A stretch of DNA of 64,000 bases. Origin: Macrocystis pyrifera (lineage: Eukaryota > Sar > Phaeophyceae > Laminariales > Laminariaceae). How positions within the stretch are numbered: the stretch's first letter is position 1; every line of letters starts with the position of its first letter. The notes below the pieces were generated by a model. The model saw only the letters and a list, made by a program, of their open reading frames with translations. It had not been told where the DNA came from and did not search any database. This document shows positions 7,399-63,143 of the stretch, one piece after another. The stretch spans positions 3,087,001 to 3,151,000 of the forward strand of contig JASSKH010000036.1 of NCBI GenBank assembly GCA_031763025.1, written 5' to 3'. The translations under genes and the position numbers were made by a program.

Positions 7399-7503
7399 TT
7401 ACGGGGGACCATAGTAAATAGGACCTACGGTACACACAAAAACCTATATATTTACCTACTTTTACCAACAATATTTGGTCACATTTACTATGGTCCCCCG
7501 TAA
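7399..7503. mobile_element. TTACGGGGG TIR element (MITE), copy 1
   Basis: This 105-base element begins TTACGGGGGACCATAGTAAA and ends with the exact reverse complement. It is flanked by TA on the left; the right TA has decayed to TT. The interior is AT-rich with no coding capacity. A TA target site with short TIRs suggests a non-autonomous Tc1/mariner-type element. The same insertion is present at 54721-54825, so it predates the segmental duplication. Confidence 0.85.
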
Positions 7504-11050: not shown

Positions 11051-11060
11051 TCGCAAATAT

Positions 11061-12013: not shown

Positions 12014-12869
12014 GGCCACGGTGGCACGCTCAGGTCCTTTCAGATCCTTTCATCCCCTACTGGTGAAAATCGACATCATTTCATAAAAAAAAAGCTACAG
12101 TTACAAAACGAGACTGTCAGGTTTCGGACCAATGGAAGGCTGAGGGTGACTTGAGGCAAAGCACAAATCACTCTGGAAACTATGCGAATCGCTATCTGGC
12201 TTGTCGGCGTGGTCAGCGGTGCTCGGGCATGCGGATCTATGGCGGCCCCACAAGGTAAGAGGGTTACCAGGGTCGTGAGACATGTCGCCTGCCAAAATTT
12301 GGTGGTATCCAGTGCACTGTGTGTCGAGAGCTGGTGTGGGCGTGTTCTAGTCACCGACAACCCTGGTTAGGCCGCCTCTTGAGCCCTTGGCTCAGGCGTC
12401 CTACCCCTGTGCTCGTCTCACAGACCGCGAAGACCACCAGAAGAAGGCTTCACCTCACCGCCATGTTGTTTGAAGGTGATTCCTCCCCCGCAGCGTCGCA
12501 AACGAGCATGTATAAGTCGACTTTGGGCCCGAAAGGTCTGATTTTGGTCCGAAATCTGGACCGGAGGTGTGGCAAGGGTTATCGAGGCGTACTTGTACAA
12601 GTATTCACGCTGCACCCACAACACAAACACACACCACCAACCACGGCAACCACTGTCGCTGCCCTGATGTGTGGTCTATCACCTGCGGTGGAATTGGCGC
12701 ACGAGGTGCCGTACAGCAGTAGAAATTCATGTTTTGGTTATGCAGGTCTGGTAAGGTAACATTGTGCTTAGGACCCACCCACGCGAAGACAGGGCCAGAT
12801 GTACCCGTTTTGAGGCCCGCCGTTCTCTTTGGCTTTGGCAAACTCGGCCAAATGTCTCGCAGACCAAGG
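12014..12869. other. No gene seen
   Basis: Short open frames exist on both strands, including a plus-strand one at 12319-12759. None has a recognisable domain, a convincing start or repeat-free composition. Confidence 0.4.
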
Positions 12870-17589: not shown

Positions 17590-18374
17590 TTTATTTTTTT
17601 ACGTGATTTCTAGCGGGAGTACTTTTGCGATACGTATTATTTTTTTTGGGCGAATAGACCGGTCGGAATAATCACGCCGTTCCTTTAAAAACCCGGGGTC
17701 GTCCTTTTACCGGCCAGATCGGATTCCTGAGCGTGCCACCGTGGCCTTAACACACGTCGTGGCGTTTTCCGTGTATTGCAATATGTTTTCTTGGAGAAGG
17801 CCGAGGGCGACGTAGACTGCGTTGGGTGTGTTGTCTAAAACGCAGTGAACTTCGTCGTTACACCACCAGACAACTCTCATGCATCCATGTTCAACATTGT
17901 AGTACATTACACGAGATATCACTTCCATCGGTCACGTTGCGTTGAGTATCTCATGTGTGATCGTTCTGCGTCGTCAGAGATAAAATTCTAGAGCAGCAGC
18001 TAGCTGCAGTAGTAATACGTAATATCTTTTCTAGTTTTTTGTTGCCTATCTTTGTGACGACACCCCCACAACCCTTCACCTGCAACAAGTATACCAGCAC
18101 TGCCAGACTACCCGGAAAGTACCACGTAATCCAACGTCAAGAACCGTTGACAATCGGATTTTATCTCGAACATATATATACAGTATGCACTATTATTACG
18201 TGAAGTCGACTTTTAACGTTGAAAATAAATCTTGCCCTCTACCGGAACACAGGCAAAGGAGCCCACTGTAAGAGTAAATGACAGGAACATACAAAATTTG
18301 ATAGCGGTTATACTGAAGTCAGTATAAAACGCACCTTTCCCGAATAAGAAATTCGGACTGGATCAGCATTCCTG
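17590..18374. other. No gene seen
   Basis: AT-rich intergenic DNA up to the left terminal repeat of the large retroelement. Open frames are short and unsupported. Confidence 0.5.
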
Positions 18375-18778
18375 TGTGATATGAGTAGAGTATTCATGGG
18401 CTATAGATATAGATAATACGTTGCAGTCTTGTAGTTCCACGAATACGAGAATAATCCAAAGAATGGATTAACCCGGCGGATATTCCGTTAGTCGAGAGTA
18501 TCGTTATTTTAGGAATGTTCCGTGATGCAGATAGGACTACGAAGTGAGAAGTTCTTATATTAGCAGAAGAACGATCGGTAGCCATTAGGAAAGTTCTGTT
18601 GGAGTACATCAGATAAGAGGAATTTAGGAGAGTTTGTGGCGTGGGGTGGGACGAGTATATCTGGGCGTCGAGTCCCGCCCCCCTACCTCTCACTTCTCTA
18701 CCAGAGCACCTCCTCAGCTCTCGCCATCAATCAGAAGATCTAAATCAGAAGAAGCGAAGCACTGCTTTTCCAGCTGCC
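18375..18778 (+). repeat. 5' long terminal repeat
   Basis: This 404-base repeat starts TGTGATATGAGTAGAG and ends CCAGCTGCC. It is matched at 31431-31835. A minus-strand frame of 99 codons inside it translates identically in both repeats. That frame is not evidence of a gene, because the DNA itself is duplicated. Confidence 0.85.
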
Positions 18779-21700
18779 GTCAGAGCATCACATCTGACGT
18801 CGTCGCATTCAACGAACGTTCTGGCCAAGCTTGGGACTGCAGCGCTTCTTCTAGATCTTCTCACGATCATGTGAGCCATCCCTACCCGGGAGGCATCTGG
18901 TTTTGAAGTCAACTTTTTATTTATTTGTTTTTGTTTATGTTCCCTGTTTCTCGTATCTTTCGCTCTCTCTTTTCTTTCGTTTTTTCTTCTTTTTTTTACG
19001 AACCTGCGTTACCGAGTGCGTTTACAGTGTAGAGCGTGACAAGCTGCCTAGTGGCATAAGTAGGCGCTTCTCCCCTCCCAGTATAGGAGAGTTGACGCTT
19101 CTCCCCTCCTAGCAGGCACCGTCAAATCGCACGTGCAAGTACGTACAACAAGCTCTCTTGTTCGTAAGTATTGATTGGTGCTATTAACAGTGCTATTAGC
19201 AGTATGATCGAGGTTTGTTTTTCCGCTCCCTATACCCCGTCTCCGCCGTGGAATGACGAGGTCGGTTGAATGCACCTGGAGACCCCCCCCAAACGACCTC
19301 GTGCTCATCGCACAAACCAAGCAGCGTTTTCCTTTGTACCCCTCCGCCTCCATATGCCCGCCCTTTCACAGGGAATGCACGTAGTAAGTACTACTGCTGT
19401 AGGTGGAACTACTGGCACATTCTTGCCCGCAGACAGTTTGTCCGCATCTTCCGGTTTATACTCGTGTTGTATGGGATTTGACCCTTACCACAACTACAAA
19501 GAAGCTGCTATCGTACTGATAGGACAACCACGCAGCAGTACGTACCGACACCTTGTTCTTTGGTACGTGATATATATGCCGGTGGTGTGACCTACTACGC
19601 CATCGTTAGTATACGCATCTGTGAGCAGCGTACAAACGGCTCGACCATCATTTCGAATTGTATCCGCTGGTATCCATCGCATGGAATATTCGCCTGCGAG
19701 TTCTTGAGAGGCCATTATTATTATTACTATTTTTTTTTTTTTACCTGATACGAGCAATGGTATACGTATTGACTGACCTCACTTGCGACCCCCTGATAGC
19801 GAGAAGAATCATATATATATATTTTATTATTGTTTTTTTTTTTCATGCCCTTTGGTTACCGGATTTCAAACCATATACTGGCCTACAGAGACTGGTATAC
19901 GAGCGAGGTACAAATAGTGAATAGTGGTACCATGGTACGTAGTAATAATATTACGTATGTAGTAGCGACAATTCCCGTGACCCCCCCTCGTTCCCTGCCA
20001 TATATTTAGGTAGCCAAACGATGCACAATTGGGTCGGTCCCCCCGTCTCGATGTGATGGAGTCGCACATCCATCGTATAGGAACGCATATACTCGCAGAC
20101 GAATCTTATATGGTTGCACGTAGTATTAATAGCCCTTTTGGGACCAGCGTACATATGTGCACCCCTCTTCAGATTGTCCCATCCTTACGCTGCTTCTACA
20201 CTACGAGGTACAGAACAAGCGGCATGATGCACCTCCTGCGGAGCCTTTACTATATAAACAGGGCGCATGTTGCCGAAATTGACCAGATTTCTGCTACCTT
20301 TTTTGCCCCACCCCCACAGCCTCTATAGGATACAAACAACGGTCTTTATTTTCATTTTTTTTTGTTATATATATATATATTTTTTTTTTTGCTGCTGCTC
20401 TTTACGTGCACGTTTTCCAGCGTTGACGACATAATAAGACGGCTTTATGTTGCTGAACCTCGGCCCACGGCTGCCTGTGTATGCCTAAATTTCTCAGTTT
20501 TACACCAGAAATAAGATATAAGCTGCCTACGTGCACGATCTTCAGCGTTAACGATACAACGAGGCTTTATGGCGCCCAACCTTGTCTGACTACTGCTGTT
20601 TACGTCTACCCCCCCCCCAGCTGTACTACATTAACAGAATGTACGACACCTGATCTGGTCCGAATATTCCGTTTGGTCGTGTTTGTTTTCCCTCCCTTTC
20701 CCGTTTCGCTTTCGAATTTTCTTTTTTTTTTTTTTTTTCTTTTTTTTTCCCGACTTTTAAGCCAAAGCAGGGTAGACACTGTTCAAGTTTGTTACAAGTG
20801 TTATTTTCCAGCGCATCCCATCCCCACCCGCTTTTACAAATATGCAGGGTACAGGCTGCCTAGAACTGTAACACTACAAAGGTTACACAAACGAGTAACA
20901 TATCATCTGGTTATCCCTTGTTTGTCCAGCTTCTCACAAAACCAGCAGCTGCCTGCTGCTCATATATGGAACATAATAACTGTGGCCCGGGCAGTGATCA
21001 GTTCCAAAGAGATGAACTAAATGCTGGCCAAATTAAACAAAATAATATACAATTTTTCGCGGCGGATTAGAGTATTGGACCTCCCCACAGGAGCCAAATG
21101 ATACCCTTTTCCACATTTTTACGTACCGGGGTCTATTTATTTATTTTTTGTTTTCCACTTGTGTTACCTCTACGATACCCTACGTATCTCACATCGTGTC
21201 GGACCTCGCGACGCCCCGAAATGCACCGGTTGCTGTCTGTTTTGCCACGGAACGACAAGCTGCCCACCGTTTAGGGAATCGCCCGATATTCTGTGCAGCT
21301 ACTAAATAGTGCCGGCATGCTGCATTTTTTTTTTCCCCGACTCGACCTTCACATTTTCTTTACGGGTACTCTTATTTGTATCCCAACGAAAGGTCTTGCA
21401 CTGCCCACGCTCAGTAAGCGTCACGCCCTGTTATCATTACGAACATTGGGCATTTCAGACATCATTACGAACATTGGGCATTTCAGACGGAGTTATGTTC
21501 AATTCTGTTCAACTGATATCACTTGAGTGACCCCGGCGCGACTACCGTCAATCAAACGCGAGGTGCCTGGCGCTAGTTAGATGCCCTCAACCATAAAAAT
21601 ATCCTTCGACGGGCACTAAAATCGTGGCACGCACAACCTCAACACCCCCTATCGTACGTCCTTACCGTCACTCCTTTCTCTCTCCTAGATCGGTTTGTTG

Positions 21701-21803
21701 GTATTGTAGCCGCCTACCCTGATCCAAGCCTGGATCCACCCGCCCTCTCCATCCTCCACCAAACCTCTTCCCGCCCCAGTACAAGCGTTCCACCCGCCTA
21801 AAC
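18779..21803. other. Long 5' leader of the retroelement, no gene seen
   Basis: About 3 kb separates the 5' LTR from the first gag-like codons. It is rich in poly-T and TTTC tracts (18903-19000, 19725-19742, 20340-20395, 20700-20755). It includes a 27-base tandem duplication near 21440-21490 (ACGAACATTGGGCATTTCAG twice). There is no convincing coding frame. Confidence 0.6.
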
Positions 21804-22832
21804 ATGGCCGAGAAAGCTTCCTCCACCAACATGCCCGGCGCCCACTCCCCCGACGCCACCAACCCCCGCGAGGCGAGGTATGCCGCAAGGGCCTCTCGCG
21901 CCACGGACGACGACACCCCCAGCTTCGAAACCATTCTGAGCGACCTCACGCTACACCCCACCACACCGGGATCCTCTCCACTGGGAGCAGGTACGACCAG
22001 TGCCGTGCCTACCATAAAACCGGAGGTCTCCGCACAGGAAGCCTCCACCCTTGCTCTCCATCCGGGGCGTTACCAAGGCGATCCCACGGCCCTCCGTGAG
22101 CGCCGTGCGGCCCTCAAAGCCCACCACGAGCAGCTCCTCCTTCTCGCGTAGGAGAGCGCTGACCTCCTACTCGTGCTACCGCCATCCCCCACTCCTTCTT
22201 CGAACCCTTTCGACCCCACCTACGAGACTACAGCCGTGACCGCGACCACCACAACGCAATCGCAGCCGCTCGCTCCGCACCCGGACCCACCCTTTACGTC
22301 CGCCGCGATGTCTAGGACCACCACCCACCAACCTCCCCAAAACCAAACTGGGACCACAATGTCCCAGGCACCATTTCCGACCCAACCCTCGCCAGCCCCC
22401 ATGCCCACTGGGCACAGGCAACCGCAGACGTTCGGTTTCGAGTCCAATGACTGGGTTTTCCTGGACGCCAAGCTCCGCTGGATGCAGAGTACACGCGACC
22501 CGATAGCCTCGGATGTCTCGATAGCGGCACACCGCGTCTGGCGCCTGTTCACACCCGACTGCGACCCGTCGATCACCTTCGTTCTGGCCCGCGCCGCCAC
22601 CGAGGTGCCTCGTCCAAGTTCATCGGGGCCGCCCACACCCATTTACTCGAGCTACGGTATTTCCACTCCAACGCCGGCCGCGGCTACGTGTGGAACCCAA
22701 CCGAGCCTCGACCCACTTTCCCGACACCCCAACCACCCGCCCCACGACGGACACGCCGCCGGCGATACCGCCCCACTCCACCTCGACAACTCCCACGACG
22801 ACGACAGCGCGCCCCCCCGCACGAGCACTTAG
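21804..22832 (+). pseudogene. gag N-terminal region of the retroelement, broken
   Basis: An ATG at 21804 opens a frame rich in Ala, Ser, Thr and Pro, as expected of a disordered gag N-terminus. A TAG at 22149-22151 interrupts it, and the frame then resumes without change (22152 on). A tryptophan-containing segment follows (about 22440-22600). Coding-like sequence then shifts frame: near 22610 it passes to another frame (about 22612-22740, with aromatic and charged residues), and then again into the frame of the capsid-like part downstream. So there is at least one nonsense codon and two frame changes. No zinc knuckle is visible. Assignment to gag rests on position rather than on a specific motif. 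Confidence 0.6.
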
Positions 22833-23934
22833 CCTGAGGACAGAAGCCACCACGGAGCCCATGAAGGAGGCGGAACGTCGTAGTGTCCGGCGCCTCTACG
22901 CCGGGGTCGATATGCGCAAGTTCACTGCGCTCGTGCGGTTTCCATGCCCGGACAATGTGGAACCCGCCGTCTACCTGGGCATGCTCCTCGCCAGCGTGAA
23001 ACTCGTCCTCGGCGAGATCCTGATAGTGTGCGACGACTCGGAGAAGCAGTCGTTTGAAACACCTCCGTGGGTAGTGGGATGGGATGCTCCACTTCAAAGG
23101 TGTTTCCGCAAGGCGCTCTCGTCCCCCCAGGTCATGACATCGCCACTGCCTCGCCTCATCGACGATTTCTTCGTCCAGGTGCGCCAGGAGCTCACCGTCG
23201 ACAACACCGGACCGTCGGCATTCAAGAAGCTCCTACGTCTACTCACGAACCACTTCGACGACGGCGACCAGGGCCGCGCCTTCGAGCAGCTCCACACCTT
23301 CGGCGTCCCAAATCTGACGGACTTCGCGACCTTCGTCCGTGCCTTTAAAGAACGTGTGTCCGTCGCACAAGGCACGGAACGGGTCTTCAAGCCGAGCGAT
23401 GCCATGGTCATCGAGATTGTACGCGGCACTACGGGCAGCCAATACCCGTCCCTCATGCCCACGCTTTATCCGGGGCGCCTCATGACCACCCCGCAGCCCT
23501 TCTCCTCGGTTGCCGACATGTGGGCAGCTTTCGAAGTGCTGGCGACCAACAAGACGCCGGCAATCAACGGGCACCGCTTCCACGCGACTTCCTCCGGCGG
23601 ATTCGTCACGTACTCCTCCTCTCCACCGACCCCAGCGCGGCAGCAAACTCCGCGTGGCCCAGGTACCAACACAAGGGGGTCTTCCTCCAACCCGTTCGTC
23701 ATGAACGTGGCCGAACAGGGGCGCGACCCGTTCTGCGAGGACGAGGCGGACTGGCCGCTGCGACACTACGAGGAGGTATACATGGTCACGACCACATTCG
23801 ACCCTCAGACCCCAATCGCTCCGACAACTGGCGCCACAACAACGGCCGGTCATACGACAACGGCAACTGACAGTCGCCAGGGCAACAGTTACATCGACAA
23901 CGCATCGAGCCTGCCCCCTCGTCTTCAGCATTGA
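22690..23934 (+). pseudogene. gag capsid-like region
   Basis: The frame is open for 414 codons. The first ~50 are Pro/Thr-rich. From about 22860 it becomes a helical, charged domain of roughly 260 residues, with segments such as LRLLTNHFDDGDQGRAF, TFVRAFKERVSVAQG and VADMWAAFEVL, which fits a Ty3-type capsid in size and position. The C-terminus is low complexity and ends at 23934 with no CCHC knuckle. Coding-like sequence continues briefly in another frame to about 24138. It lies directly upstream of the linker and the NADAR-protease frame, the usual gag position. The identification is moderate and a profile search would settle it. Confidence 0.6.
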
Positions 23935-24949
23935 CGGTGCATAGCCCCGCGACCAATACTTCCGCACCTGCCGCCCCCGCGAACATGCGGATGGGCAGCA
24001 CCAACTCGAAGTACCCACCCGAACCAACGGCAGCCGGGCACCTTCCGCACCAACGGACAAGCCGATGGTGGAGCAACTGTCGCATCTCCACCAACAGCAT
24101 CTACTGCGAGCACCCGAGGCTCCCAGGACGCACGAGTAAATCACGTGCACCACGCCTACCCGACCCCTGCCCTCCAATGCCCCCCCCCTACCCCAGCCCA
24201 TTTCACAGTCACTTGTTCAAGCACTGATCATCTTGCCCAAGTGATTGCCTTGAGGTGTGGGCGGGAGGAGGCCAAGACGCCGAGCCCCACAGGGATGCTC
24301 CACTCGACGTCTTCTGGCGGTGAGCAACGCTGCTTGCCGACTATTGCCGAGACCCCAGACATTGCTACCCTGGGAAACGTCTCGACGATTACGGCTACCA
24401 GCGGTTCCGGTTCACACGAAACTACTGTTTCGTCTACCGGGCCACCGCCCCCTGAGCCTGCCTCATCAAGGCCGCTCCATACGCGCATGTTCCAGCATGC
24501 GCGTATTTCTTGTGACAGCGTTGAACCCGCGAACGACGGGCTTCCTCCAGCTGCCACGGTGTTGACACCACCGCTGTCCCTGAGCCTCGAGGGACAGTCC
24601 CGTTTGAAATACGGAAGACTCGCGACCAACGTCGACCAGGGTCTGCCCTGAGCCCCCTGACCCGTCCTCCTCGCCTGCTTCGCGCAAAGCGTGGACACGG
24701 ACCCCAGGTGTGGCATCCCCTAGCGAGTATGCCCCTGTTCTCCAAACATTGGACGATAGGGCGCTTGAGGGTCGTCCCGCCCGGCTTATAAGCCCCGGCG
24801 AGGACCGCCCCGGTACCTCGGCTTTGCCGAGCAATTCCCCCGCGAACACGAGGGTTCCGGTCAGCACCGCTCGATCGTTGCTGACTCTACCTCCGTCTAC
24901 GCCAGGCGGCGATAGGAATAATTATCGTCGCCCTCCACCCCCAACATAA
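23935..24949 (+). pseudogene. Disordered linker between gag and pol, frame-broken
   Basis: Coding-like Ser/Pro/Thr-rich sequence runs through two frames: 24145-24651, then from about 24605 to a TAA at 24947-24949 in the pol frame. The pol-frame part (for example VASPSEYAPVLQTLDDRALEG) continues directly into the NADAR frame after that single TAA. This suggests one original linker with one frame change and one nonsense codon. No domain is recognisable. Confidence 0.45.
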
Positions 24950-26785
24950 AAGACGCCATCAACTGCACACGTCACCGCAGAGGCAGCCTCATCTTTCCAC
25001 TTCTTTTGGGACTCCTCTTCGGTCTTTTCGCAGTGGTACCTGTGCGACATCGAACACGATGGCGTCACATACAACTGCGCTGAGCAGATGATGATGGCGC
25101 AGAAGGCCGCGCTCTTCGGGGACATCACAACTGAGCGCCGCATCAAAGCGACCCGCGACCCAGCCCGCCAAAAAGCACTTGGGCGAACCGTTTCCGACTT
25201 CGACGAAATGGTCTGGGAGCGACACCGCTACACCATCGCCCTCTACATTAACTTTTCCAAGTTCCGCCAACACCCGGAGCTACGGGAGGAGCTAATAGCA
25301 ACCGGCGACAAGCACATCGCCGAGGCCAGCCCACACGACCTCATCTGGGGCATAGGCTTCAAGGCCGACCATCCGGACGCCTGTGACCCGACGCGTTGGC
25401 GTGGTCGGAATCTGCTGGGCAGGATACTGATGGACGTTCGAGCAAACCTCGGCGCCAATCGCTCCGCCCAGCCTCCATTTCCTCCCCATCTTCACGACCC
25501 GGAGCCAACACCCCCCCCACCGACTCCACCCGGGTTTCCCCCACAGCCGACGGCATCCACGAAACAAGCCCGACCCCTCCATGGCAACCGCCTACCTCTC
25601 CACTTGGGCCACTCCTACCGCCGTCTACCCCCGACGCCTACCCCAGCAGCCACTTTGCCCAAGTGTCCACCATCAACACCGCCACTCACAGCCACCCCCC
25701 CTACCCGCCGCCCGCCGATACCGGAACACGGACCATGCCTTACAAGCGGCATCATTACCGTCGACGACGCGTCGTTCACGACGAAAGTACTCGTGCACAG
25801 CGGCCCCACCGCCACTACGCGCCGCGAACTCGTGGCACTGCTCGATACCGGCTCGCCCCAGTCGTTTATCACCGCAACCGCGGTGGAACAACTGAAGGCT
25901 TCCCAGGCAGCCACCGATGCGTGCGAACGGCACAGTTCCCCCCGTTCATGGGGAGGTTTCGGCACTTCAGCCCCCCTCTCCACCTCCGTCTCCATCCGCT
26001 TAAGCATCCAGTTTATGCGCCTCCAGTCCCCCACTGCTGCCCTGGCAGTATGGGCCTGCGTAGTTCCTGCAGGAACCATGCAGAACCCCATCCTTCTGGG
26101 ACGAGACAGCTGGATGCGCTTCGAGCGACGCTCGTATACCACGCTCCAGCAACAGCCCACCCCCCCCCACCAACCTCCCCGGCGAACCCGCGGTGAGCTC
26201 TCCTTGAACCACCATGACCCCAACGGAGCCTCAGCATTCATTCCCGACGACCGTTCCACTGACGACGTCTACCACCTCCGATTCGCCGGCAACAAAGCTA
26301 TTTCGCTTTCCTCCACCCCCAAGCTCGTCAAGGTCAACCTGGCGCGTCAGTCAGGCGCTCCAGCATTTACCGGGAACTACATGGTGAACATGCTCCCCCG
26401 CGAGAACCCCCTGTCCGACCCGGCCATTTTCGTCTCCGACGAATACCTAACGGTCCCACTATCTGGAGCTACCGATCTCGAGCCGGGCGACCTCCTCGGA
26501 ACCTCCTGCTCCCCACTGGTACAGGCACCACTTTCCACCCTTGGACACCCTTCCTTGGCCCCTCCCCATCCCCCTCCGATTCCGGATGTACATGCCCTCC
26601 ACGACAACATCCCCGTGGCCGACCAGAGCCCATCGACAGACGACTCTCCTACCGCACCAAAAGCCCCGTGCCCACAACGTCTTGCACGCCTCAACGCCGA
26701 CCAACAGGAAAGCTTCCTCGACCTCTGGGAACGTCTGCCGTTACACCTACGCGACGTCAACTTCGACCTGCACGGTTCTAGATGA
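24950..26785 (+). CDS. Retroelement pol, first part: NADAR domain plus retropepsin
   Basis: The frame is open from the TAA at 24947 to the TGA at 26783. Residues encoded at about 24990-25451 form a complete NADAR-type domain: an N-terminal FFW...FSQWY segment, the AEQMMMAQKA helix (family EH..Q..KA), a LGR turn, KFRQHPELREELIATGD, the WGIG motif, and the closing GRNLLGRILMDVR. NADAR proteins (YbiA-like) hydrolyse N-glycosidic bonds of riboflavin intermediates or ADP-ribosylated guanosine. After a proline-rich linker comes an aspartic protease: VALLDTGS with the catalytic Asp codon at 25844, and ILLGRDSW at 26087-26110, so a retropepsin is well supported. A pre-RT linker follows. The first ATG (25088) would cut the NADAR fold, so translation probably entered from upstream. 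The TGA at 26783 sits in a frame that continues unchanged beyond it. Confidence 0.8.
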   Translation, partial: KTPSTAHVTAEAASSFHFFWDSSSVFSQWYLCDIEHDGVTYNCAEQMMMAQKAALFGDITTERRIKATRDPARQKALGRTVSDFDEMVWERHRYTIALYINFSKFRQHPELREELIATGDKHIAEASPHDLIWGIGFKADHPDACDPTRWRGRNLLGRILMDVRANLGANRSAQPPFPPHLHDPEPTPPPPTPPGFPPQPTASTKQARPLHGNRLPLHLGHSYRRLPPTPTPAATLPKCPPSTPPLTATPPTRRPPIPEHGPCLTSGIITVDDASFTTKVLVHSGPTATTRRELVALLDTGSPQSFITATAVEQLKASQAATDACERHSSPRSWGGFGTSAPLSTSVSIRLSIQFMRLQSPTAALAVWACVVPAGTMQNPILLGRDSWMRFERRSYTTLQQQPTPPHQPPRRTRGELSLNHHDPNGASAFIPDDRSTDDVYHLRFAGNKAISLSSTPKLVKVNLARQSGAPAFTGNYMVNMLPRENPLSDPAIFVSDEYLTVPLSGATDLEPGDLLGTSCSPLVQAPLSTLGHPSLAPPHPPPIPDVHALHDNIPVADQSPSTDDSPTAPKAPCPQRLARLNADQQESFLDLWERLPLHLRDVNFDLHGSR

Positions 26786-29569
26786 ACCCCGTCGGTGATC
26801 AACAACCTGGGAGACGTCTTCTCCACCACCAAGACTGACTTCGGCTCGTGCTCGCTCATGCCGTTCAAGATCACCGTACCCCCGGACAGCCCAACGGCTC
26901 GAGCTCCTTTCAGCGTACACCTACACGCTGGAGTACCGGACGGGCACGGCCAACGACAACGCCGACTTCCTCTCCCGGCTTCCCCAACAAGCCACCGACG
27001 CCGACCGCACCGGACGCAACCGCCTCACTGGCCCCGACACCGTCGGCATCTACCTCATCCGCCCCTGCGGCTTCGCGCCGAACGACCCTTCCCCCCCGGG
27101 TATCGGCTTGGGTGGGCTCGTGTCCCCCCTTCCAGACCCATCCCGACCGTCCAGCCGCTCCCCTTCACTGACGACGACTTCCGCGATTTTCGCCTACTCG
27201 GACCACGTATGGAGCACCCCACCCTTTCCCCCGCAACCCACACCTTCATCGGGCCTATTGCGACCAGCGACTCCACCACCGGACAGCTTGCCGGCACCGA
27301 GAATGCCGCCGTGAACACCGGAGCTCCTCCAGGCTCGGCTTCCATGCCGTCCGTCGTCTCTCCGCCGCCCACCATTGGCGCCACGACACCAGCCCTTTCA
27401 GGTCTGATATCTTCTCGGACCCGCCATCGCGTCGCCGCTGCCGCGGGAACCCCTCGGCCCACAGCCGACTACCGGTTTGGACGCCGACCGCCACCCAAGC
27501 CATCGGCGCCCACCACGCAAAGACCGACCCCTTTAACAACGCCCTCGCGGCCGGCACAAACACCACCGTCAGTGCCCCTTCCGGAGCCCGTCGTCGAACC
27601 CGATGATGACCCCTACCTCCTCGCCTGCGTCGAGCACTACACCTACAAAGACTGGGCGCGAGAACAACGCGCGGAGCCCCTGTGCTGCGCCACCATCCGC
27701 TTCCTGTCGTTGGACTCCCCCAGCCCCACGCCGCACGACCTCCTGGACTTCATCCCCCCGGCCCGGCGCCCACAACTTTCGGACGTCCTCACTCTTGCCT
27801 CCAAAAGCAAGCTACACCGTACCGACGACGAAACCACCCTCCTGGTCCAACGACCACCCACAACCTCATCCGGGAACAGCCTACCACCACCCGCCCCCTC
27901 TACCCCACGCGTCTACGTGCCAATGTTAATGCGCCCTTGGGTGCTGAACACATGCCACGCCACCACCTCTCTACACCTGGGAGTCACCCGAACGGTCCGC
28001 ATGTTGGCACGTTTCTTTTGGTGGATTGGCATGGACGCTTCCGTCCGCTGGTGGATCCGCCGTTGCCTTCAATGCCAGGCGCGGAAGACCTCCCGGCACA
28101 CCATTCGTTGGCCCATCCTTTCTCTTCCTTTGCCCAACGGGCCTGGCATCACCGTCAGCGTCGACTACTTCGGGCCCCTGCCGCTCACGCCGCGCGGGAA
28201 CGTCCACATCCTCCTCTTCACAGACCGCTTCAGCCGCCGCGCCGATATGTATGCCGTTTCAGCGGCGCAGTTCACGGCCGCCGGCACTGCCGACATCTTC
28301 CTGAACGAGTACATCCCTCTCTGGGGGTGCCCGGTTACACTTCTCTCCGACAACGGACTACACTTCACCTCCAAGCTTGCGAACATCGTCTACGAACGCC
28401 TTGGCATCCACAAGGTCAACACCAGCTCCTACCGCCCCTGCACCAACGGCGGCGTCGAGCGCGTCAACCACATACTGGCCCAAATGCCCTCTATGGTTGG
28501 CAACGAACAGCAGACCGACTGGGACGTGCTGCTCCCACACGTGTCGTCGGCCTACAACAATTCCGTGAACGCCGCCACAGGGCTTGCACCTAACGAAATC
28601 CACATGGGCCGCCTTCCTCGCCTCCCGCTCTCGGTCTTCGAACCCGACAATATCGGTGGTCATCAAAGCCTGGACCGCGATCACCTGGTTTACATCAACC
28701 TCGCCACCGACCGACAACGACGCGCCTATTCCCTCGTCCGCGAACTACACCGACTCACCGTCTCGCGTCTTCAGCGCCGCGATGCGCCCATCATGGCCGC
28801 CCTCCTAGCATCCCCCCCCTTCACCGTAGGCGGCTGGGTTTGGGTCTACAACTCCGCCTCAACCATCCGCCAAGGCGTCAAAAAGGGCACCGACGCAACC
28901 GTCCTCAAGGCGAAGCTTTCCCTGAACTGGAATGGCCCCTTCAAGGTCCTTGCCGTAGGGCCGACGCCCGCCTCAAACACCCCCGACAATCGCCCCCTTC
29001 ACGACAAGCTACTTTTCCTCGACCTTCCATCGGACCTTCCGGGACGGGACTCCAAGCCACGCGTCTCCGTCCAACGATGCAAACCTTGCCGGAACCCCGA
29101 CGACACCAGCGACATCCCCAAGCATCTGCCCGCGGACCTTACTACATACGTGCTCACAGCTTCTGCCGCCAAGTCCCCCCCTTACCACGTCACCGTCGAC
29201 GACGTCACTCCTCCACCGGAACGCCTCGAGGTCGAGCAGATCACTGGCCATCAACTCGTACGCGGCCGCGGCGGGGTCATCGCCGTTCTGTACGAGACTC
29301 ACTGGACTGGACTTCTCAGCCCCTCTTGGGAACGCGAGCTGGACCTTCAACACTTCCGGCGCCACATCCTACTTTACTGGTCACGATCACCAACCCAGCA
29401 CCGCCAGACGAACCGCCTCTACCGCCAGATGCGCATCGGCGCCGCTCACCGCGAACTGGCCCGATCCCAAGGACAAATCTTCCTCGCCCCAGGCTACGCC
29501 TTGGTCTCCCGCAGCCTTTGGCTCCACAACTTCAGCACCACCATCCTACCCTCCGGAGCACACATATGA
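26786..29569 (+). CDS. Retroelement pol, second part: RT deleted, integrase and chromodomain
   Basis: The frame is the same as before the TGA at 26783 and resumes with the entry to RT (VFSTTKTDFGSC...FKITVPPDSP, to about 26900). It then jumps in a different frame to the end of RNase H (LEYRTGTANDNADFLSRLP, 26928-26984), so RT and most of RNase H are lost. A disordered stretch precedes the integrase: zinc-binding His codons at 27956 and ~27974 and CLQC at 28064-28075; catalytic Asp 28163, Asp 28349 and Glu 28457, spaced DD35E. The core is followed by a GPF-type segment (NGPFKVL) and a chromodomain-like region (about 29220-29385, THWTGLLSPSWERELDLQ). A TGA at 29567 truncates it. Identification as chromovirus-like integrase is strong. 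Confidence 0.9.
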   Translation, partial: TPSVINNLGDVFSTTKTDFGSCSLMPFKITVPPDSPTARAPFSVHLHAGVPDGHGQRQRRLPLPASPTSHRRRPHRTQPPHWPRHRRHLPHPPLRLRAERPFPPGYRLGWARVPPSRPIPTVQPLPFTDDDFRDFRLLGPRMEHPTLSPATHTFIGPIATSDSTTGQLAGTENAAVNTGAPPGSASMPSVVSPPPTIGATTPALSGLISSRTRHRVAAAAGTPRPTADYRFGRRPPPKPSAPTTQRPTPLTTPSRPAQTPPSVPLPEPVVEPDDDPYLLACVEHYTYKDWAREQRAEPLCCATIRFLSLDSPSPTPHDLLDFIPPARRPQLSDVLTLASKSKLHRTDDETTLLVQRPPTTSSGNSLPPPAPSTPRVYVPMLMRPWVLNTCHATTSLHLGVTRTVRMLARFFWWIGMDASVRWWIRRCLQCQARKTSRHTIRWPILSLPLPNGPGITVSVDYFGPLPLTPRGNVHILLFTDRFSRRADMYAVSAAQFTAAGTADIFLNEYIPLWGCPVTLLSDNGLHFTSKLANIVYERLGIHKVNTSSYRPCTNGGVERVNHILAQMPSMVGNEQQTDWDVLLPHVSSAYNNSVNAATGLAPNEIHMGRLPRLPLSVFEPDNIGGHQSLDRDHLVYINLATDRQRRAYSLVRELHRLTVSRLQRRDAPIMAALLASPPFTVGGWVWVYNSASTIRQGVKKGTDATVLKAKLSLNWNGPFKVLAVGPTPASNTPDNRPLHDKLLFLDLPSDLPGRDSKPRVSVQRCKPCRNPDDTSDIPKHLPADLTTYVLTASAAKSPPYHVTVDDVTPPPERLEVEQITGHQLVRGRGGVIAVLYETHWTGLLSPSWERELDLQHFRRHILLYWSRSPTQHRQTNRLYRQMRIGAAHRELARSQGQIFLAPGYALVSRSLWLHNFSTTILPSGAHI
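26890..26925 (+). other. Deletion junction removing reverse transcriptase
   Basis: Left of about 26900 the protein matches the start of an RT domain; right of about 26910 it matches the C-terminal end of RNase H in another frame. A normal element would have roughly 1.5 to 2 kb of RT/RNase H here. The frame returns to that of the integrase near 27120-27135, at a short C run. Confidence 0.8.
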
Positions 29570-29797
29570 TACAAGGCGCGCGACGGCCTTTGGTGGCTGG
29601 GCAAGGTCGCTCACAGCTCACCCCCTGACGCCTCTTCGGCAACTCCGCCGGAGTCTTCACCGGGAAGCTCCTACATCGTCCGGTTCCTGGACGACCCCGG
29701 CCCGATCAAGATCGACCTCCAACCCGCCCGCTACACTACAGCACGGAACGCCGTATACGGATCATGGTGTCTTCAACTCCTGGGAATGGAACCCTAG
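29570..29797 (+). pseudogene. C-terminal domain of the integrase polyprotein, beyond a nonsense codon
   Basis: Immediately after the TGA at 29567-29569 the same frame stays open for 75 codons to a TAG at 29795. It encodes YKARDGLWWLGKV and later YIVRFLDDPGPIKIDL, a small Tudor/Agenet-like pattern of a tryptophan-rich strand followed by FLDDPGP. This looks like the natural end of the polyprotein, cut off by one nonsense change. The Tudor-like label is a pattern impression only. Confidence 0.65.
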
Positions 29798-31430
29798 CAC
29801 GTGGGGTGCTGCGGAACTCTGATGTGTCCCGCGGAACCCCCACCGTTTCCACTCCCCCCCCTGGTTAGCCTTAGTTTAGTCTTTTGTTAGTTCTGGGTAT
29901 TTAGTTGTGGTTAGTCTGCAATATCTTAAGAGTAGTTCTTCAGGGTTAGTCTTCAATAGTCATCAGCAGTCATCTTCTTGGGAGTGTTTGTTTCCTTCTA
30001 CCGCCACCGGTATCGCTTGACCGACCCCGTGTTGGCTACCGATCCGAGGCCGTGTGTGTTTCTTTTTTTTGGGTGTGTTTGGGAGTATCATCGTCCCCCC
30101 CCCCCCCCCCCGTTTGTTTTTCTTCTTATCGTCTACGGGTCCGTGTAACCTCCATACGTTCAGGCCACTGACTCGTAGCGATACCTTCATTTGCATTTGT
30201 GTTTGTACTCCACTAGCCTACAGCCAATTATCGGCGATATCACGCCTAGGTAAAATCGTGTTGTAGCCTGAGCTGTGCTCTGACCTTAGTCGACTTCCGC
30301 CGACCCGTGTTTCAGACGGTCCTCGAGCTAAGACTATATCGAGCTTCTAGCTCACCCGTGTTTCTTCTATGTTTGACAAGTAGGGTAGCATTGCCGCCCC
30401 GGAAGGCCGCTGAGTTATCGGCCATACATATGCGGTTCGGACATGATCGATTTCTCCTGACCTGTGTCCAGCTTTTTGTCTGTTTTCTGGTCCCAATGGT
30501 ATTTCGTTTTCTCTTTCCCTTTTCTTCTTCTTTCTTTCTTGTCCGGTATTCCGCACACCCCTCTGTCCTCTGGCAAACGACACCACGTTTGATGTCGCCC
30601 CGGTTGACCGAGTTGCACACGCTAGGTTTTGGGCCCCGCGCTATCTACAACTTCGAACTGCACGCAATAGGCCGATTTTCTTGCGGATTTTCTTGCGATT
30701 GTTTTTGCCGCCACCGTCTTTGAGTTTGTTTTTGTTGAGTTGGCTACTTGCTACGTTTGCTGGTTTTGTTCACACCACGGACAGGTCTCCGAGACGCCGC
30801 GTTGCTTATTGCGTCTCTCGGTTTTAGTAGTCCCTAGTACACGCAGCCCTCATAGCATTCTAGCTGTGTCCCTTCTGTCTCGCATGATGACTACCATGTT
30901 AGGACCTTCGCCACAAGACAAGGCATGGGGCCTAGCGGATATATATATATGTTTTTGAATTGTGATCGCTGTCTCCTTTTTAGAGTTTCCTCGTTCGCCA
31001 ACCCGGTTCAGCGAACAACCCTTTCGTACTTCCTTGGGCCCCAGACAATGGCTCCGGTGAAACGCTTGTACGTCCTTCTTTTGCCTTCATTTGGGTCTTC
31101 GTTTTCTTCTTCGGCCTTCGCTTCGGTTTCTGCCTCATTTTGCGTTCGTCTTTCTTTGTTTTCATTTTGGGTGATTTTTCCTTTCGCCTCTGCCATGAGT
31201 TCGGTGTCTCTCTCTCCTTTAGTCTCCCTTTCCGTGGTTATTCGCAGCGAACACCCCCTCTTCGTAGTGTTTGGGTTTTATTACGAGGTGTGGGGGGATC
31301 TATAGCCTCATTTCTTTTGTTTCGAATAGCCGCATCTTCGACCACCTTTTTCTGGCCGTTCGGGATGAACTTTGTCATCACCCTCCGACCATCTTGTGGT
31401 CTGCATATACGACTATTCAGGGTGGGCTAA
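29798..31430. other. 3' non-coding part of the retroelement
   Basis: About 1.6 kb separates the last pol codon from the 3' LTR. It has a C run at 30095-30110 and T-rich stretches (30480-30545, 31130-31170). I see no supported open frame, and no clear polypurine tract before 31431 (the flank reads CAGGGTGGGCTAA). Confidence 0.6.
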
Positions 31431-31835
31431 TGTGATATGAGTAGAGTATTCATGGGCTATAGATATAGATAATACGTTGCAGTCTTGTAGTTCCACGAAT
31501 ACGAGAATAATCCAAAGAATGGATTAACCCGGCGGATATTCCGTTAGTCGAGAGTATCGTTATTTTAGGAATGTTCCGTGATGCAGATAGGACTACGAAG
31601 TGAGAAGTTCTTATATTAGCAGAAGAACGATCGGTAGCCATTAGGAAAGTTCTGTTGGAGTACATCAGATAAGAGGAATTTAGGAGAGTTTGTGGCGTGG
31701 GGTGGGACGAGTATATCTGGGCGTCGAGTCCCGCCCCCCTACCTCTCACACTTCTCTACCAGAGCACCTCCTCAGCTCTCGCCATCAATCAGAAGATCTA
31801 AATCAGAAGAAGCGAAGCACTGCTTTCCAGCTGCC
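31431..31835 (+). repeat. 3' long terminal repeat
   Basis: The 405-base match of 18375-18778 has a 2-base insertion (CTCACACTTC for CTCACTTC) and one T fewer near the end. Sequence identity ends abruptly after CCAGCTGCC. Confidence 0.85.
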
Positions 31836-32196
31836 AGAACAACCTGCGTCCCTTGCCACTACCCTTACCACTACCCTAGAGCGGGCTCCGCATCACACCT
31901 GCTTCTTATTTTCCCCACTACTTTGATGAGTGAGGTGTTTACATTATTGTAGCTCGCCCGGGAAAAATGCCTTTTTATTTCTTCTATATATATTTCTTGA
32001 CCCCTACCCATGGTCCCTGAGCCTTTTCGTACGTGTTCATACGAATAGCCAAGCATGGCTTATATTTCTGAACAAATACCTCACGAATTAGAAACATACC
32101 AAAAAAGGACGAAACCGAGGAGAAACCTTAAGAATTGGCAATAAAACGAAAACGAAAAAATATGCAGCATCTTCAAACAAGTAAAAATTATACCTA
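31836..32196. other. No gene seen
   Basis: AT-rich flank to the right of the retroelement with no open frame of note. Confidence 0.5.
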
Positions 32197-33040: not shown

Positions 33041-34821
33041 ATTGGTGGTAATGAGGCGCGACCTCAGCAATACCTGAAGTAGTCATATCTGCGATGCATC
33101 ATGCAAAACATTTGTCCTGAACCAACACGAACGAACATCTACTGCTGCTGTACCTACTACCTATACGCCGTCGTTGGTGACTCTCATAACCGTAAATATT
33201 CTTGGCATCATATCCTGCTCTTGAAAAACACAGCCAGCACAGCAGTACGGACACACCTGTAACAAATACCAGGTACTGGATTTTGTCGTGTGTATCCTGG
33301 TATTTCCACCTCGAAATCCGGCATAATAATTTGAAGACGAAAAATATGTACTACTGCTGTGTGACCACAGAAGTTATTACTTGTATTCGTATCGTATCTC
33401 TCGGGAATTCAGGAATCGGCACAGACACTGACTGGTTGTGCTGGATGTCGACGGGTGGAAAGAACAAGACGACAAATAGACACACACCTGATACATATTT
33501 TTTCTTCTTCTGTTTTTCCACCATGTAAGTGTTTTCTGGTTGAAATTCGGCATAATTAATTTGAACACGAAAAATCTGCATCTGAAAATATTTGTCCAAC
33601 AGAAGGTGCTTCTTTCTCGCCACCACTACTTGCTTGTACTGATGTATGTACGACATCTACATACGGCAGCAGTGTTTCTCCAGCAACAAAAACAGCAGCA
33701 GCAGCAGTAGCAGTGGGCCGCACGAGGCCAGGGTCAGCGTCGATGTACGCTCGGCGGCTCGGCTTGTCAATCTAACCCTTGAACCCTTTGTACACATCTA
33801 CAGCAGCAGCAGTGTTTCTCCAGCAACAAAACAGCAGTAGCAGTATAGCAGTAGGACACACGACGCCAGGGTCAGCGTCGCTGTACGCTCGGCTTGTCAA
33901 TCTAAACCCTTGAACCCTTTGTACACGTAGTCGATTTTGTCCTGTGTTGGTTTTGAACTCTAAATTCGGCTTAATAATTGCAAGACGAAAAATCTGCACT
34001 CGACGTGCTCTGTCCAAGAGAGAACTTCTCGTAGCAGGTAGCAGGTGCCACCGCTACTACTGATGATGTACGACATCTACAGCACTTCTCCAGCAGCAAA
34101 ACAGCAGCAGCAGTAGGACACACGAGGCCAGGTCAGCGTCGCTGTACGCTCGGCTTGTGTGTGAACCCTTCGTACATGTGTTTCCTGGTCCGGAACTCAT
34201 AGTTGCAGACGAAAAATCTACAATCTGACGTGCAGAGCTTCTTCTAGCAGTACCACCACCACTACTACTGCTGTACAACTATTATACAGCAGATACTCTC
34301 CTGCTTCTCAGTCCCCTCATCACCAGGAGGGTGGGCCTGCAGCATGTCTCGGGGACATGGCCCGAACGCTCGTCGCTGTGGACAGGCACAGTCTGCCTAC
34401 CTAGCTGGGTTTCAAAATATAGTGTGTTGTTGGTTCTGTGTTTTTTCAACATGGCCCAGCACCAACATGTGCCTACACACGTTGCCACACCTAGCTCGAG
34501 CTACTGTGAACGACTTACCACCGCACCAGCACCAGGAGGTCTCTTTTGTGTGTGCGCGTCCACAGAGCCCGCCGGGACTGGAATTGGTGCGGTGTGCGTC
34601 GAGGGCGGTGGTCAAACGTTGCCCAAAAAAATGTTGAATCACACACACACACACACACCCAGCCACACACACACACACACACATACAGAAAAAACTCAAA
34701 ACAAGGCACCCCACGCTCGTACCGAAGCCGCTATGAAGAGGCTTTTTTTTTTTCTTGGAAAATTCCAAGAAAAAAAAGGCTCGCCCGCTTTTAGCGCGCT
34801 TCGCGCGCCTCATTACTAGTA
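33041..34821 (+). repeat. Tandem ~1.75 kb unit A
   Basis: The unit starts ATTGGTGGTAATGAGGCGCG and ends GCGCGCCTCATTACTAGTA, so its ends form a short inverted repeat (TAATGAGGCGCG / CGCGCCTCATTA). Inside are degenerate sub-repeats containing GACGAAAAATCTGCA and CAGCAGCAG...CACGAGGCCAGGGTCAGCGTCG. A (CA)n tract lies at 34640-34682, then an A/T hairpin (CTTGGAA / TTCCAAG, 34741-34780) and a GCGCGCTTCGCGCGC hairpin. It is non-coding. Unit A carries a segment near 33367-33450 that units B and C lack. Confidence 0.9.
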
Positions 34822-36560
34822 ATTGGTGGTAATGAGGCGCGACCTCAGCAATACCTGCAGTAGTCATATCTGCGATGCATCATGCACAACATTTATTTGA
34901 TTTGTGCTGAACCAACACGAACGAACATCTACTGCTGCTGCTGTACCTACTACCTATACGCCGTCGTTGGTGAATCTCATAACCGTAAATATTCTTGGCA
35001 TCATATCCTGCTCTTGAAAAACACAGACAGCACAGCAGTACGGACACACCTGTAACAAATACCTGGTACTGGATTTTGTCGTGTGTATCCTGGTATTTCC
35101 ACCTCGAAATCCGGCATAATAACTTGAAGACGAAAATATGTACTACTGCTGTGTGACCACGGAACTGGATGTCGACGGGTGGAAAGAACAAGAGACGACA
35201 AATAGACACACACCTCATATATATTTTTTCTTTTTCTGTTCTTCCAACAGCAAGTGTTTTCTGGTTGAAATTCGGCATAATTAATTTGAACACGAAAAAT
35301 CTGCATCTGAAAATATTTGTCCAACAGAAGACGCTTCTTTCTCGTAGCAGGTGCCACCACTACTTGCTTGTACTGATGTGTACGACATCTGCATACAGCA
35401 GCTGTGTTTCTCCAGCAACAAAAACAGCAGCAGCAGCAGTAGCAGTGGGACGCACGAGGCCAGGGTCAGCGTCGATGTACGCTCGGCGGCTCGGCTTGTC
35501 AATCTAACCCTTGAACCCTTTGTACACATCTACAGCAGCAGCAGTTTTTCTCCAGCAACAAAACAGCAGCAGCAGTAGCAGTAGGACACACGACGCCAGG
35601 GTCAGCGTCGCTGTACGCTCGGCTTGTCAATCTAAACCCTTGAACCCTTTGTACACGTAGTCGATTTTGTCCTGTGTTGGTTTTGAACTCTAAATTCGGC
35701 ATAATAATTGCAAGACGAAAAATCTGCACTCGACGTGCTCTGTCCAAGAGAGAACTTCTCGTAGCAGGTAGCAGGTGCCACCGCTACTACTGATGATGTA
35801 CGACATCTACAGCAGAGCTTCTCCAGCAGCAAAACAGCAGCAGCAGTAGGACACACGAGGCCAGGTCAGCGTCGCTGTACGCTCGGCTTGTGTGTGAACC
35901 CTTCGTACATGTGTTTCCTGGTCCGGAACTCATAGTTGCAGACGAAAAATCTACAATCTGACGTGCAGAGCTTCTTCTAGCAGTACCACCACCACTACTA
36001 CTGCTGTACAACTATTATACAGCAGATACTCTCCTGCTTCTCAGTCCCCTCATCACCAGGAGGGTGGGCCTGCAGCATGTCTCGGGGACATGGCCCGAAC
36101 GCTCGTCGCTGTGGACAGGCACAGTCTGCCTACCTAGCTGGGTTTCAAAATATAGTGTGTTGTTGGTTCTGTGTTTTTTCAACATGGCCCAGCACCAACA
36201 TGTGCCTACACACGTTGCCACACCTAGCTCGAGCTACTGTGAACGACTTACCACCGCACCAGCACCAGGAGGTCTCTTTTGTGTGTGCGCGTCCACAGAG
36301 CCCGCCGGGACTGGAATTGGTGCGGTGTGCGTCGAGGGCGGTGGTCAAACGTTGCCCAAAAAAATGTTGAACACACACACACACACACACACACACCCAG
36401 CCACACACACACACACACACATACAGAAAAACTCAAAACAAGGCACCCCACGCTCGTACCGAAGCCGCTATGAAGAGGCTTTTTTTTTTTCTTGGAAAAT
36501 TCCAAGAAAAAAAAAAGGCTCGCCCGCTTTTAGCGCGCTTCTCGCGCCTCATTACTAGTA
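34822..36560 (+). repeat. Tandem ~1.75 kb unit B
   Basis: Same structure as unit A, and nearly identical to unit C over its whole length. The (CA)n tract is at 36371-36421. The terminal GC hairpin carries one change (CGCTTCTCGCG). Confidence 0.9.
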
Positions 36561-38382
36561 ATTGGTGGTAATGAGGCGCGACCTCAGCAATACCTGCAGT
36601 AGTCATATCTGCGATGCATCATGCACAACATTTATTTGATTTGTGCTGAACCAACACGAACGAACATCTACTGCTGCTGCTGTACCTACTACCTATACGC
36701 CGTCGTTGGTGAATCTCATAACCGTAAATATTCTTGGCATCATATCCTGCTCTTGAAAAAAACACAGACAGCACAGCAGTACGGACACACCTGTAACAAA
36801 TACCTGGTACTGGATTTTGTCGTGTGTATCCTGGTATTTCCACCTCGAAATCCGGCATAATAACTTGAAGACGAAAATATGTACTACTGCTGTGTGACCA
36901 CGGAACTGGATGTCGACGGGTGGAAAGAACAAGAGACGACAAATAGACACACACCTCATATATATTTTTTCTTTTTCTGTTCTTCCAACAGCAAGTGTTT
37001 TCTGGTTGAAATTCGGCATAATTAATTTGAACACGAAAAATCTGCATCTGAAAATATTTGTCCAACAGAAGACGCTTCTTTCTCGTAGCAGGTGCCACCA
37101 CTACTTGCTTGTACTGATGTGTACGACATCTGCATACAGCAGCTGTGTTTCTCCAGCAACAAAAACAGCAGCAGCAGCAGTAGCAGTGGGACGCACGAGG
37201 CCAGGGTCAGCGTCGATGTACGCTCGGCGGCTCGGCTTGTCAATCTAACCCTTGAACCCTTTGTACACATCTACAGCAGCAGCAGTTTTTCTCCAGCAAC
37301 AAAAACAGCAGCAGCAGTAGCAGTAGGACACACGACGCCAGGGTCAGCGTCGCTGTACGCTCGGCTTGTCAATCTAAACCCTTGAACCCTTGGTACACGT
37401 AGTCGATTTTGTCCTGTGTTGGTTTTGAACTCGAAGTTCGGCTTAATAATTGCAAGACGAAAAATCTGCACTCGACGTGCTCTGTCCAAGAGAGAACTTC
37501 TCGTAGCAGGTAGCAGGTGCCACCGCTACTACTGATGATGTACGACATCTACAGCAGAGCTTCTCCAGCAGCAAAACAGCAGCAGCAGCAGTAGGACACA
37601 CGAGGCCAGGTCAGCGTCGCTGTACGCTCGGCTTGTGTGTGAACCCTTATTTGTACATGTGTTTCCGGGTCCCGAACTCCTAATTTGAAGACGAAAAATC
37701 TACAATCTGACGTGTGTCCAGCAGAGCTTCTTCTAGCAGTGCCACCACTACTACTACTGCTGTACAACAACGTGTGTCCAGCAGAGCTTCTTCTAGCAGT
37801 GCCACCACTACTACTACTGCTGTACAACAACAACTATTATACAGCAGATACTCTCCTGCTTCTCAGTCCCCTCATCACCAGGAGGGTGGGCCTGCAGCAT
37901 GTCTCGGGGACATGGCCCGAACGCTCGTTGCTGTGGACAGGCACAGTCTGCCTACCTACGAGTACTCGTAGAGCTAGCTGGGTTTCAAAATATGATGTGT
38001 TGTTGGTTCTGTGTTTTTTCAACATGGCCCAGCACCAACATGTGCCTACACACGTTGCCACACCTAGCTCGAGCTGCTGTGAACGACTTACCACCGCACC
38101 AGCACCAGGAGGTCCCTTTTGTGTGTGCGCGTCCACAGAGCCCGCCGGGACTGGAATTGGTGCGGTGTGCGTCGAGGGCGGTGGTCAAACGTTGCCCAAA
38201 AAAATGTTGAATCACACACACACACACACACCCCACCACACACACACACACACATACAGAAAACTCAAAACAAGGCACCCCACGCTCGTATCCGAGCCGC
38301 TATGAAGAGGCTTTTTTTTTCTTGGAAAATTCCAAGAAAAAAAAAGGCTCGCCCGCTTTTAGCGCGCTTCGCGCGCCTCATT
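36561..38382 (+). repeat. Tandem ~1.75 kb unit C
   Basis: Nearly identical to unit B except for an internal 60-base tandem duplication at 37711-37830 (block ending CTACTGCTGTACAACAA). The (CA)n tract is at 38213-38256. It ends GCGCGCCTCATTATTAATAC, not CTAGTAATT, so the array stops here. Confidence 0.9.
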
Positions 38383-39504
38383 ATTAATACTGCTGCTGTT
38401 GTATACTCGTACCTACCTGCTGTCCGAGCACCACAAGAGTCCCTCCAGCAGATGTGCCGTACGGGCTTCACAAGGGCATCTGTGCTCGTACCGTCTACCA
38501 CAACAGCAGCAGTTGTCTGAATTTTTCTCGCCTCCCGTACTGACTGCACGTATATACTAGTACCAGTGTGCGCAGGAGAGGTACTACACTGCTGCTTTAC
38601 CAGGTACTGACTGCTATAAGAGAATGTTGCCTACGAGGGAGGCACCTGTTTGGTGCGTCACAACTTGCACGGCTGCCGTGTGCCGGTCGCAACCTGCGCA
38701 GCAATCCCTCCAGTAGATGGCTGTCGCCTGCACCCCACGAGCTCTCTCTACACTTTACCTACCATTACACAAGGTAGCAACCGTGGTCTGCATTGTTTTC
38801 GGTGGTTAGGAGATGCGTTTTTATGAAGAAAGCGCAGAGGAATTCGAGGAAGTGGAATAAGCCACAAGGTCAGGAGTCAAGACCATGTACATGAAAAACG
38901 AGTGGGAGTGGCATCGCTTAATTCGTACGTACCGAAGGTTAGCTTCAACGGTATACGTGAAATTCACGTCGGGTGTGAGACTTGATCCCGTTTAAGTTCG
39001 TCGAGTGCCGTGATGCCGAGTGAATAAACGGCCGCAACGTGGTAAGCATTTTGACTGGGTTTCCCGTCAAGTAAGTTGTCACTGCTGTTCCGCACAACAT
39101 ATGACGTTGTCACTGCTGTTTGGTCCTATTCTTGTTCGTTGCCACCTCTGTCAGGATGATCCCGTCATCACGAGCATGGTGAGATCTTCTGCGATATAAT
39201 AGCATCGGCGGCCCATTTGGTGGGTCAATCTGGTTGAAGACCCAGCAATCTTTGCTGAGGGACGAAGCGAGGAAGGCTGCACGTCAAGGCTGACTGACAG
39301 ACTGATTCCGATGGCCTGCCAATATAGTATCCAGGCAAGGGAGTATTTTGCGGTTGTGGCTTTCTAATGTATCAGCGTGCTTGCAGTACGAATGGTGCAG
39401 AAGAGTGTATATGCCTCTGCTCGCATGAAGGGAGATTCTATGGCCACTCTTGATCACCACGATCTTGATCTTGCTGACGTAGGGAGTGGGGGGGGGGTGT
39501 ACTA
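38383..39504. other. No gene seen
   Basis: Apparently unique sequence with CAG/CTG-type triplets at the left. No supported coding frame. Confidence 0.5.
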
Positions 39505-63103: not shown

Positions 63104-63143
63104 TATACAAGCAAAAACTCGACGAGCAGAGTACCTATTAATA
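63104..63143. repeat. 40-base direct repeat, right side of the inverted unit
   Basis: Perfect copy of 60806-60845. Confidence 0.9.

Follow-up and report, generated by a model that had tools for sequence, protein, structure and literature searches.

A Ty3/Gypsy-type element of Macrocystis pyrifera with a YbiA-family NADAR domain at the N-terminus of Pol

Retrotransposons carrying a NADAR domain have already been described from a brown alga. In one Gypsy lineage of Ectocarpus, exemplified by Gypsy-12_Ec32, a highly conserved NADAR domain is reported at the N-terminus of Pol in all families (PMC12477816, Genome Biology, September 2025). The same paper describes three lineages with putative C-terminal chromodomains, Gypsy-12_Ec32 among them, and raises horizontal transfer as a possible origin of the retrotransposon NADARs and RNA processing as a possible role. 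The arrangement of NADAR within a Gypsy Pol is thus published for Ectocarpus and is not new in kind. As to chemistry, NADARs are known to take ADP-ribose off guanine in DNA (PMC11543638; PMC11125620), and where ADP-ribose is attached to the guanosine base in RNA they alone removed it among the hydrolase families tested (PMC11833690). Ectocarpus also encodes Esi0017_0056, a stress-induced soluble protein of 391 aa with a NADAR domain at residues 132-291 and two predicted introns, which raises the salt and heat tolerance of Arabidopsis. This protein has two relatives in Ectocarpus, beyond which its nearest kin are prokaryotic, and the published view is one of bacterial transfer followed by duplication (PMC7922944).

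We analyzed a stretch of 64,000 nucleotides of Macrocystis pyrifera DNA (the window), in which positions 18375-31841 are, from their direct repeats and ORFs, apparently a single LTR element. A sequence-only reading of the window had proposed that a complete NADAR domain is encoded inside the polyprotein of this element. The features of the element are as follows.

18375..18787, + strand: 5' LTR candidate (repeat 18375-18778, prolonged by eye as far as the following CA)
22525..23934, + strand: gag-like ORF of 469 codons, stop to stop
24950..26785, + strand: first open part of pol, with NADAR, a proline-rich linker, and an aspartic-protease-like region, ending in the TGA at 26783-26785
25001..25450, + strand: NADAR (YbiA-family) domain, PF08719
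25082..25084, + strand: glutamate equivalent by alignment to E43 of the Phytophthora nicotianae NADAR (E44 of the query)
25103..25105, + strand: lysine equivalent by alignment to K50 (K51 of the query)
25322..25324, + strand: glutamate equivalent by alignment to E125 (E124 of the query), the mark of the YbiA subfamily
25838..25855, + strand: LLDTGS motif of the protease, 3' of the proline-rich linker
26786..29569, + strand: second open part of pol, in the same frame after the TGA, with an RT-start-like stretch, integrase, and a chromodomain-like tail
27917..28438, + strand: integrase zinc-binding and core domains (PF17921, PF00665)
29228..29383, + strand: chromodomain-like tail, aa 75-126 of 29006-29569 (PF00385 at E 0.023, below cut-off)
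31431..31841, + strand: 3' LTR candidate (repeat 31431-31835, its end extended by eye)

The two LTR candidates, direct repeats 404-405 bp long and 13,056 bp apart, have an identity of 99.26% across 406 columns. Both start with TG, and the CA end is reached only by extension by eye across a 3-base gap. The flanking bases, TCCTG before the 5' copy and ACCTG after the extended 3' copy, agree at four of five positions, a weak match found by eye after the repeat had been extended. For the gag-like ORF, no Pfam match had an E value of 1 or lower, and its name reflects position only, so that the proposed placement of the NADAR domain between gag and protease is fair as regards position, with a gag that Pfam does not recognize. 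This ORF is in a different frame from the pol ORF; its frame is open on to 24649, with no Pfam match in the part 3' of the ORF, and the gap of ∼1 kb at 23935-24949 is interrupted by stops in every + frame (7, 8, and 7). Scans of the window with Rfam, at the gathering threshold, and for tRNAs gave no matches.

The element is situated between two direct copies of a ∼9 kb stretch (1-9006 and 47217-56323), which are 96.7% identical and 47.2 kb apart. A gene for a large protein is present twice (1183-4918 and 48406-52020, both on the - strand). In the right copy it is one ORF of 1204 codons, and in the left copy it takes the form of two ORFs that overlap and differ in frame. The left copy was scanned, and its ORF at 2282-4915 has matches to both LNR/Notch (E 6.3e-8) and the PMP repeats of Chlamydia (E 4.7e-11). 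The regions 33139-38389 and 60838-63106 contain a repeat recurring every ∼1.73 kb, with up to three direct copies and, close to the right end of the window, inverted stretches that match (88-99%), and 11060-12037 comprises three copies at a spacing of 339 bases, 86-97% like the first copy.

Starting at 24950, the pol ORF has no stop before the TGA at 26783-26785. Its NADAR domain begins 51 bases into the ORF, that is, at the N-terminus of Pol, with no ATG ahead of it. Pfam PF08719 matches aa 17-166 over profile positions 1-162 of 163 with 168.3 bits (E 2.2e-49; curated cut-off 35.1 bits), which bears out the complete domain proposed at 24990-25451, and the four hallmark segments quoted for the family are all present in the translation of 24953-25460. 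A chance motif match was rejected as the source of the NADAR call given the E value of the PF08719 match. NCBIfam TIGR02464 (ribofla_fusion) also matches over its cut-off (E 1.2e-44), and the anti-phage model NF053876, at 42.8 bits, stays well short of its cut-off of 240. An AF2 model of the domain, based on a 28-row alignment, has a mean pLDDT of 94.5; only two of its 17 Foldseek matches in the PDB are below E 0.001, namely 8bau (E 1.2e-10) and 2b3w (E 1.4e-7). The pol ORF carries a complete NADAR domain of bacterial type and of the YbiA family.

The ADP-ribose site was assessed at 13 positions (PMC11543638), mapped via the HMMER alignment with chain numbers equal to those of the paper plus 2, an inferred offset that yielded the named residue at 13 of 13 positions of the solved NADAR. 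Eleven of these positions are identical in the window domain (E43, K50, K75, G78, R79, V81, W89, R93, E125, D130, and W133) and the remaining two are conservative (Y84F and D86E). Glutamate at the E125 position marks the YbiA subfamily, the residue being Asp in BC4488 and His in phage NADARs (PMC11543638). Equivalents of E43, K50, W89, E125, D130, and W133 occur in all 171 relative loci, and R93 (R in 70/171) and D86 are variable, counts that are partly circular because every locus was picked by similarity and 160 of the 171 were fetched by peptide patterns that take in either the K50 region or E125-D130 (plus W133 for the genome scan). Judged by sequence, the NADAR domain should be an intact enzyme, and since its active-site residues are kept, its activity may reasonably be guessed to be the removal of ADP-ribose from the guanines of nucleic acid.

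Downstream of the NADAR domain, pol is recognizable in part. The claim that NADAR is in frame with a retropepsin, with no stop between them, stands as regards the single ORF and the LLDTGS motif, and the retropepsin itself is better termed protease-like, as the matches in this region (PF12384, E 0.0043; PF13650, E 0.014) are weak and both below cut-off. The zinc-binding domain of the integrase is above cut-off (PF17921, E 9.1e-16) and the core domain is below it (PF00665, E 4.8e-6, 27.2 bits, cut-off 32.6). A match to the Ty3-G pol structure 7q5b at E 4.9e-23 identifies the integrase as Ty3-type, lying 3' of the protease-like region. No reverse transcriptase (RT) or RNase H family was recognized in the pol pieces scanned by profile. 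In a three-frame reading of 26701-27200, a stretch whose motifs resemble the start of an RT appears to run directly into one that resembles the end of an RNase H in another frame, from which we infer that an internal deletion removed the RT from the copy in the window. As no RT is recognized and pol contains a stop, this copy is unable to act alone, and the element is a defective, non-autonomous derivative of the Ty3/Gypsy type.

Our best explanation is that a Ty3/Gypsy-type element, probably of the NADAR-carrying kind known from Ectocarpus, inserted at this site, and that the copy has lost its RT. Its Pol comprises, in order, a complete YbiA-family NADAR of bacterial type, the protease-like region, the (lost) RT/RNase H, integrase, and the chromodomain-like tail. 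In intact copies, we predict that the NADAR within Pol is co-packaged with RNA and RT and frees guanines in the RNA or cDNA of the element from ADP-ribose, providing a cleaned template whose reverse transcription would be unblocked by host or environmental ADP-ribosylation. Cleaning of the template would be the simplest use of NADAR chemistry because a Pol-borne NADAR would be packaged with both RNA and RT. That the locus is a NADAR-carrying Ty3/Gypsy-type element we regard as nearly certain. The functional part, removal of guanine ADP-ribose from element RNA or cDNA, is a tentative proposal that we consider somewhat more prone to be wrong than right. The statement taken whole, a Ty3/Gypsy element that has lost its RT and whose Pol-borne NADAR cleans guanine ADP-ribose from its own RNA or cDNA, seems to us evenly poised. 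Points that count against it are as follows: TIGR02464 takes its family name from riboflavin intermediates, first translation of the NADAR is explained neither by an ATG nor by an open frame from the gag-like ORF, and the copy in the window is defective. In the passages of the literature that we consulted, from a search not aimed at algae, retroelement RNA or DNA bearing ADP-ribose on guanine is not described. Should the enzyme act on guanine ADP-ribose in RNA, this would suggest that ADP-ribosylation is a barrier to retrotransposition in the host, a possibility for which those same passages contain no test.

The NADAR domain could instead be a binding module, with RNA, ADP-ribose, or ADP-ribosylated chromatin as its target, in a manner comparable to chromodomains, which direct integration. 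This would be in line with the weakly chromodomain-like tail of the window element and with published families that pair NADAR with a putative chromodomain (Gypsy-12_Ec32; PMC12477816). However, the equivalents of the catalytic glutamate and lysine are kept, and retention of every such residue would not be required for binding alone; we consider this reading unlikely. Alternatively, the enzyme may act on small molecules such as riboflavin intermediates, ADP-ribose, or NAD-derived metabolites, with a metabolic or stress benefit to the host that lowers the cost of the element. The strong TIGR02464 match is consistent with such substrates, as is the tolerance to salt and heat that the stress-induced Ectocarpus NADAR protein imparts to Arabidopsis (PMC7922944). 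A host benefit would, though, leave the fixed place of the domain inside pol unexplained, and we rate this possibility as quite improbable.

A further alternative concerns the origin of the domain. The tblastn searches matched 709 phage records, all below 60% identity and not exceeding 49.3% in the 20 best rows (30 further rows were sampled down the ranking), and 77 plasmid records, likewise all below 60% with the best row at 50.0%. GTDB genomes contained at least 591 pattern-matching stretches, at least 580 of them encoding NADAR relatives, and the best 80 of these that were kept have at most 54% identity to the query; viral contigs gave 399 pattern matches, including 366 NADAR relatives, of which 80 were kept. 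The closest NADAR relatives among the matches listed are bacterial, with 54% identity at best. A tree was built from 168 of the 171 loci plus the query (169 rows), drawn from prokaryote genomes, plasmids, phages, and viral contigs only. The query belongs to a set of 75 rows (SH-aLRT 96), 60 of which are labelled with a bacterial phylum, and is placed on a long branch (0.98) without a resolved sister. An origin of bacterial type is suggested, and a eukaryotic donor would be compatible with a tree of prokaryote, plasmid, phage, and viral rows. The bacterial placement agrees with a published remark that Gypsy NADARs retrieve almost only bacterial hits (PMC12477816). Separate searches of viral contigs with NADAR alone (3 pattern matches) and with the integrase piece (18) found no relative of the element in either case, and phage records contained no match to its integrase at E 1e-3.

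Some of the related loci have peculiarities of their own. The NADAR contigs L087 (genome), L092, and L100 (both viral) each have a single in-frame stop, read with the standard code, within the aligned domain, perhaps through stop recoding or decay. On a Cupriavidus plasmid (L007) the NADAR is located within a longer gene annotated at 17717-18922 (∼400 codons), so there is extra sequence around the domain.

The bacterial affinity of the closest relatives among the matches listed, together with the decay of the window copy elsewhere, might indicate that NADAR is a passenger captured from a bacterial gene and functionless in the element. Against this, the reading frame of the domain is uninterrupted, its length is complete, and its active-site residues are kept, while the pol around it has a stop and no recognizable RT, and in the published lineage a highly conserved NADAR is found in every family (PMC12477816). 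We rate a functionless passenger as quite improbable. GC content by codon position is alike in the NADAR part (0.59/0.46/0.72), the gag-like ORF (0.61/0.55/0.73), and the integrase (0.61/0.47/0.76), which fits a long residence of the domain in the element without amounting to proof. We rejected as highly improbable a chance juxtaposition of a host NADAR gene with element fragments, whether next to them or inside them. Such a reading might draw on the lack of an ATG 5' of the domain within its ORF and on the stops that separate NADAR from the gag-like ORF in every + frame. However, a single open frame runs through NADAR and the protease-like region, the next ORF in that frame encodes the Ty3-type integrase, and the same domain order is in print (PMC12477816), upholding the assignment of NADAR to pol in the sequence-only reading.

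Esi0017_0056 may be derived from a NADAR-Gypsy copy or be a gene model over one, a derivation required neither by its two predicted introns nor by the published bacterial transfer and duplication (PMC7922944); the protein is not named in the main text of PMC12477816. The domain of Esi0017_0056, compared here by description, is like that of the window in having prokaryotic nearest relatives and a brown-algal host (PMC7922944). It is a distinctly improbable proposition that the Pol NADAR is a working guanine-ADP-ribose hydrolase protecting the RNA and cDNA of the element against a host restriction based on ADP-ribosylation, as a eukaryotic counterpart of phage NADARs, and that domains of this sort were also reused by brown algae, with Esi0017_0056 and its stress tolerance as one example.

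Starting from raw sequence and mapping the ADP-ribose site, our analysis confirms the reported existence of a Gypsy-type element that carries NADAR and shows that the catalytic residues have been retained. The window element is probably a further member of the kind described from Ectocarpus, with which it shares a YbiA-family NADAR at the N-terminus of Pol, the Gypsy type, and bacterial nearest relatives of the domain (PMC12477816). Provided that it belongs to this lineage, the published families oppose the notion that the domain is present in one copy only. Gypsy-12_Ec32 has a putative C-terminal chromodomain, whereas the PF00385 match of the window element is below cut-off, and the window copy differs from the Ectocarpus lineage, as known from its published description rather than its sequence, in having no recognizable RT (PMC12477816). 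The Tx1 element of Crassostrea gigas, also compared by description, resembles the window element in encoding NADAR in a retrotransposon protein; however, it is a LINE with an apparent NADAR in ORF1, and its matches are called divergent hits (PMC12477816). The ADP-ribose-bound Phytophthora nicotianae NADAR (8bau) has the same fold as the window domain (TM 0.82 by query length) and shares 11 of the 13 named ADP-ribose-site residues, with Y84F and D86E in the window, but it is a separately expressed protein with 32% identity to the window domain in the structural alignment. E. coli YbiA (2b3w) and the YbiA-like NADARs of phages and bacteria have the family, fold, and E125-type glutamate in common with the window domain; these, in contrast, are cellular or phage proteins outside any polyprotein, with at most 54% identity to it among the rows listed.
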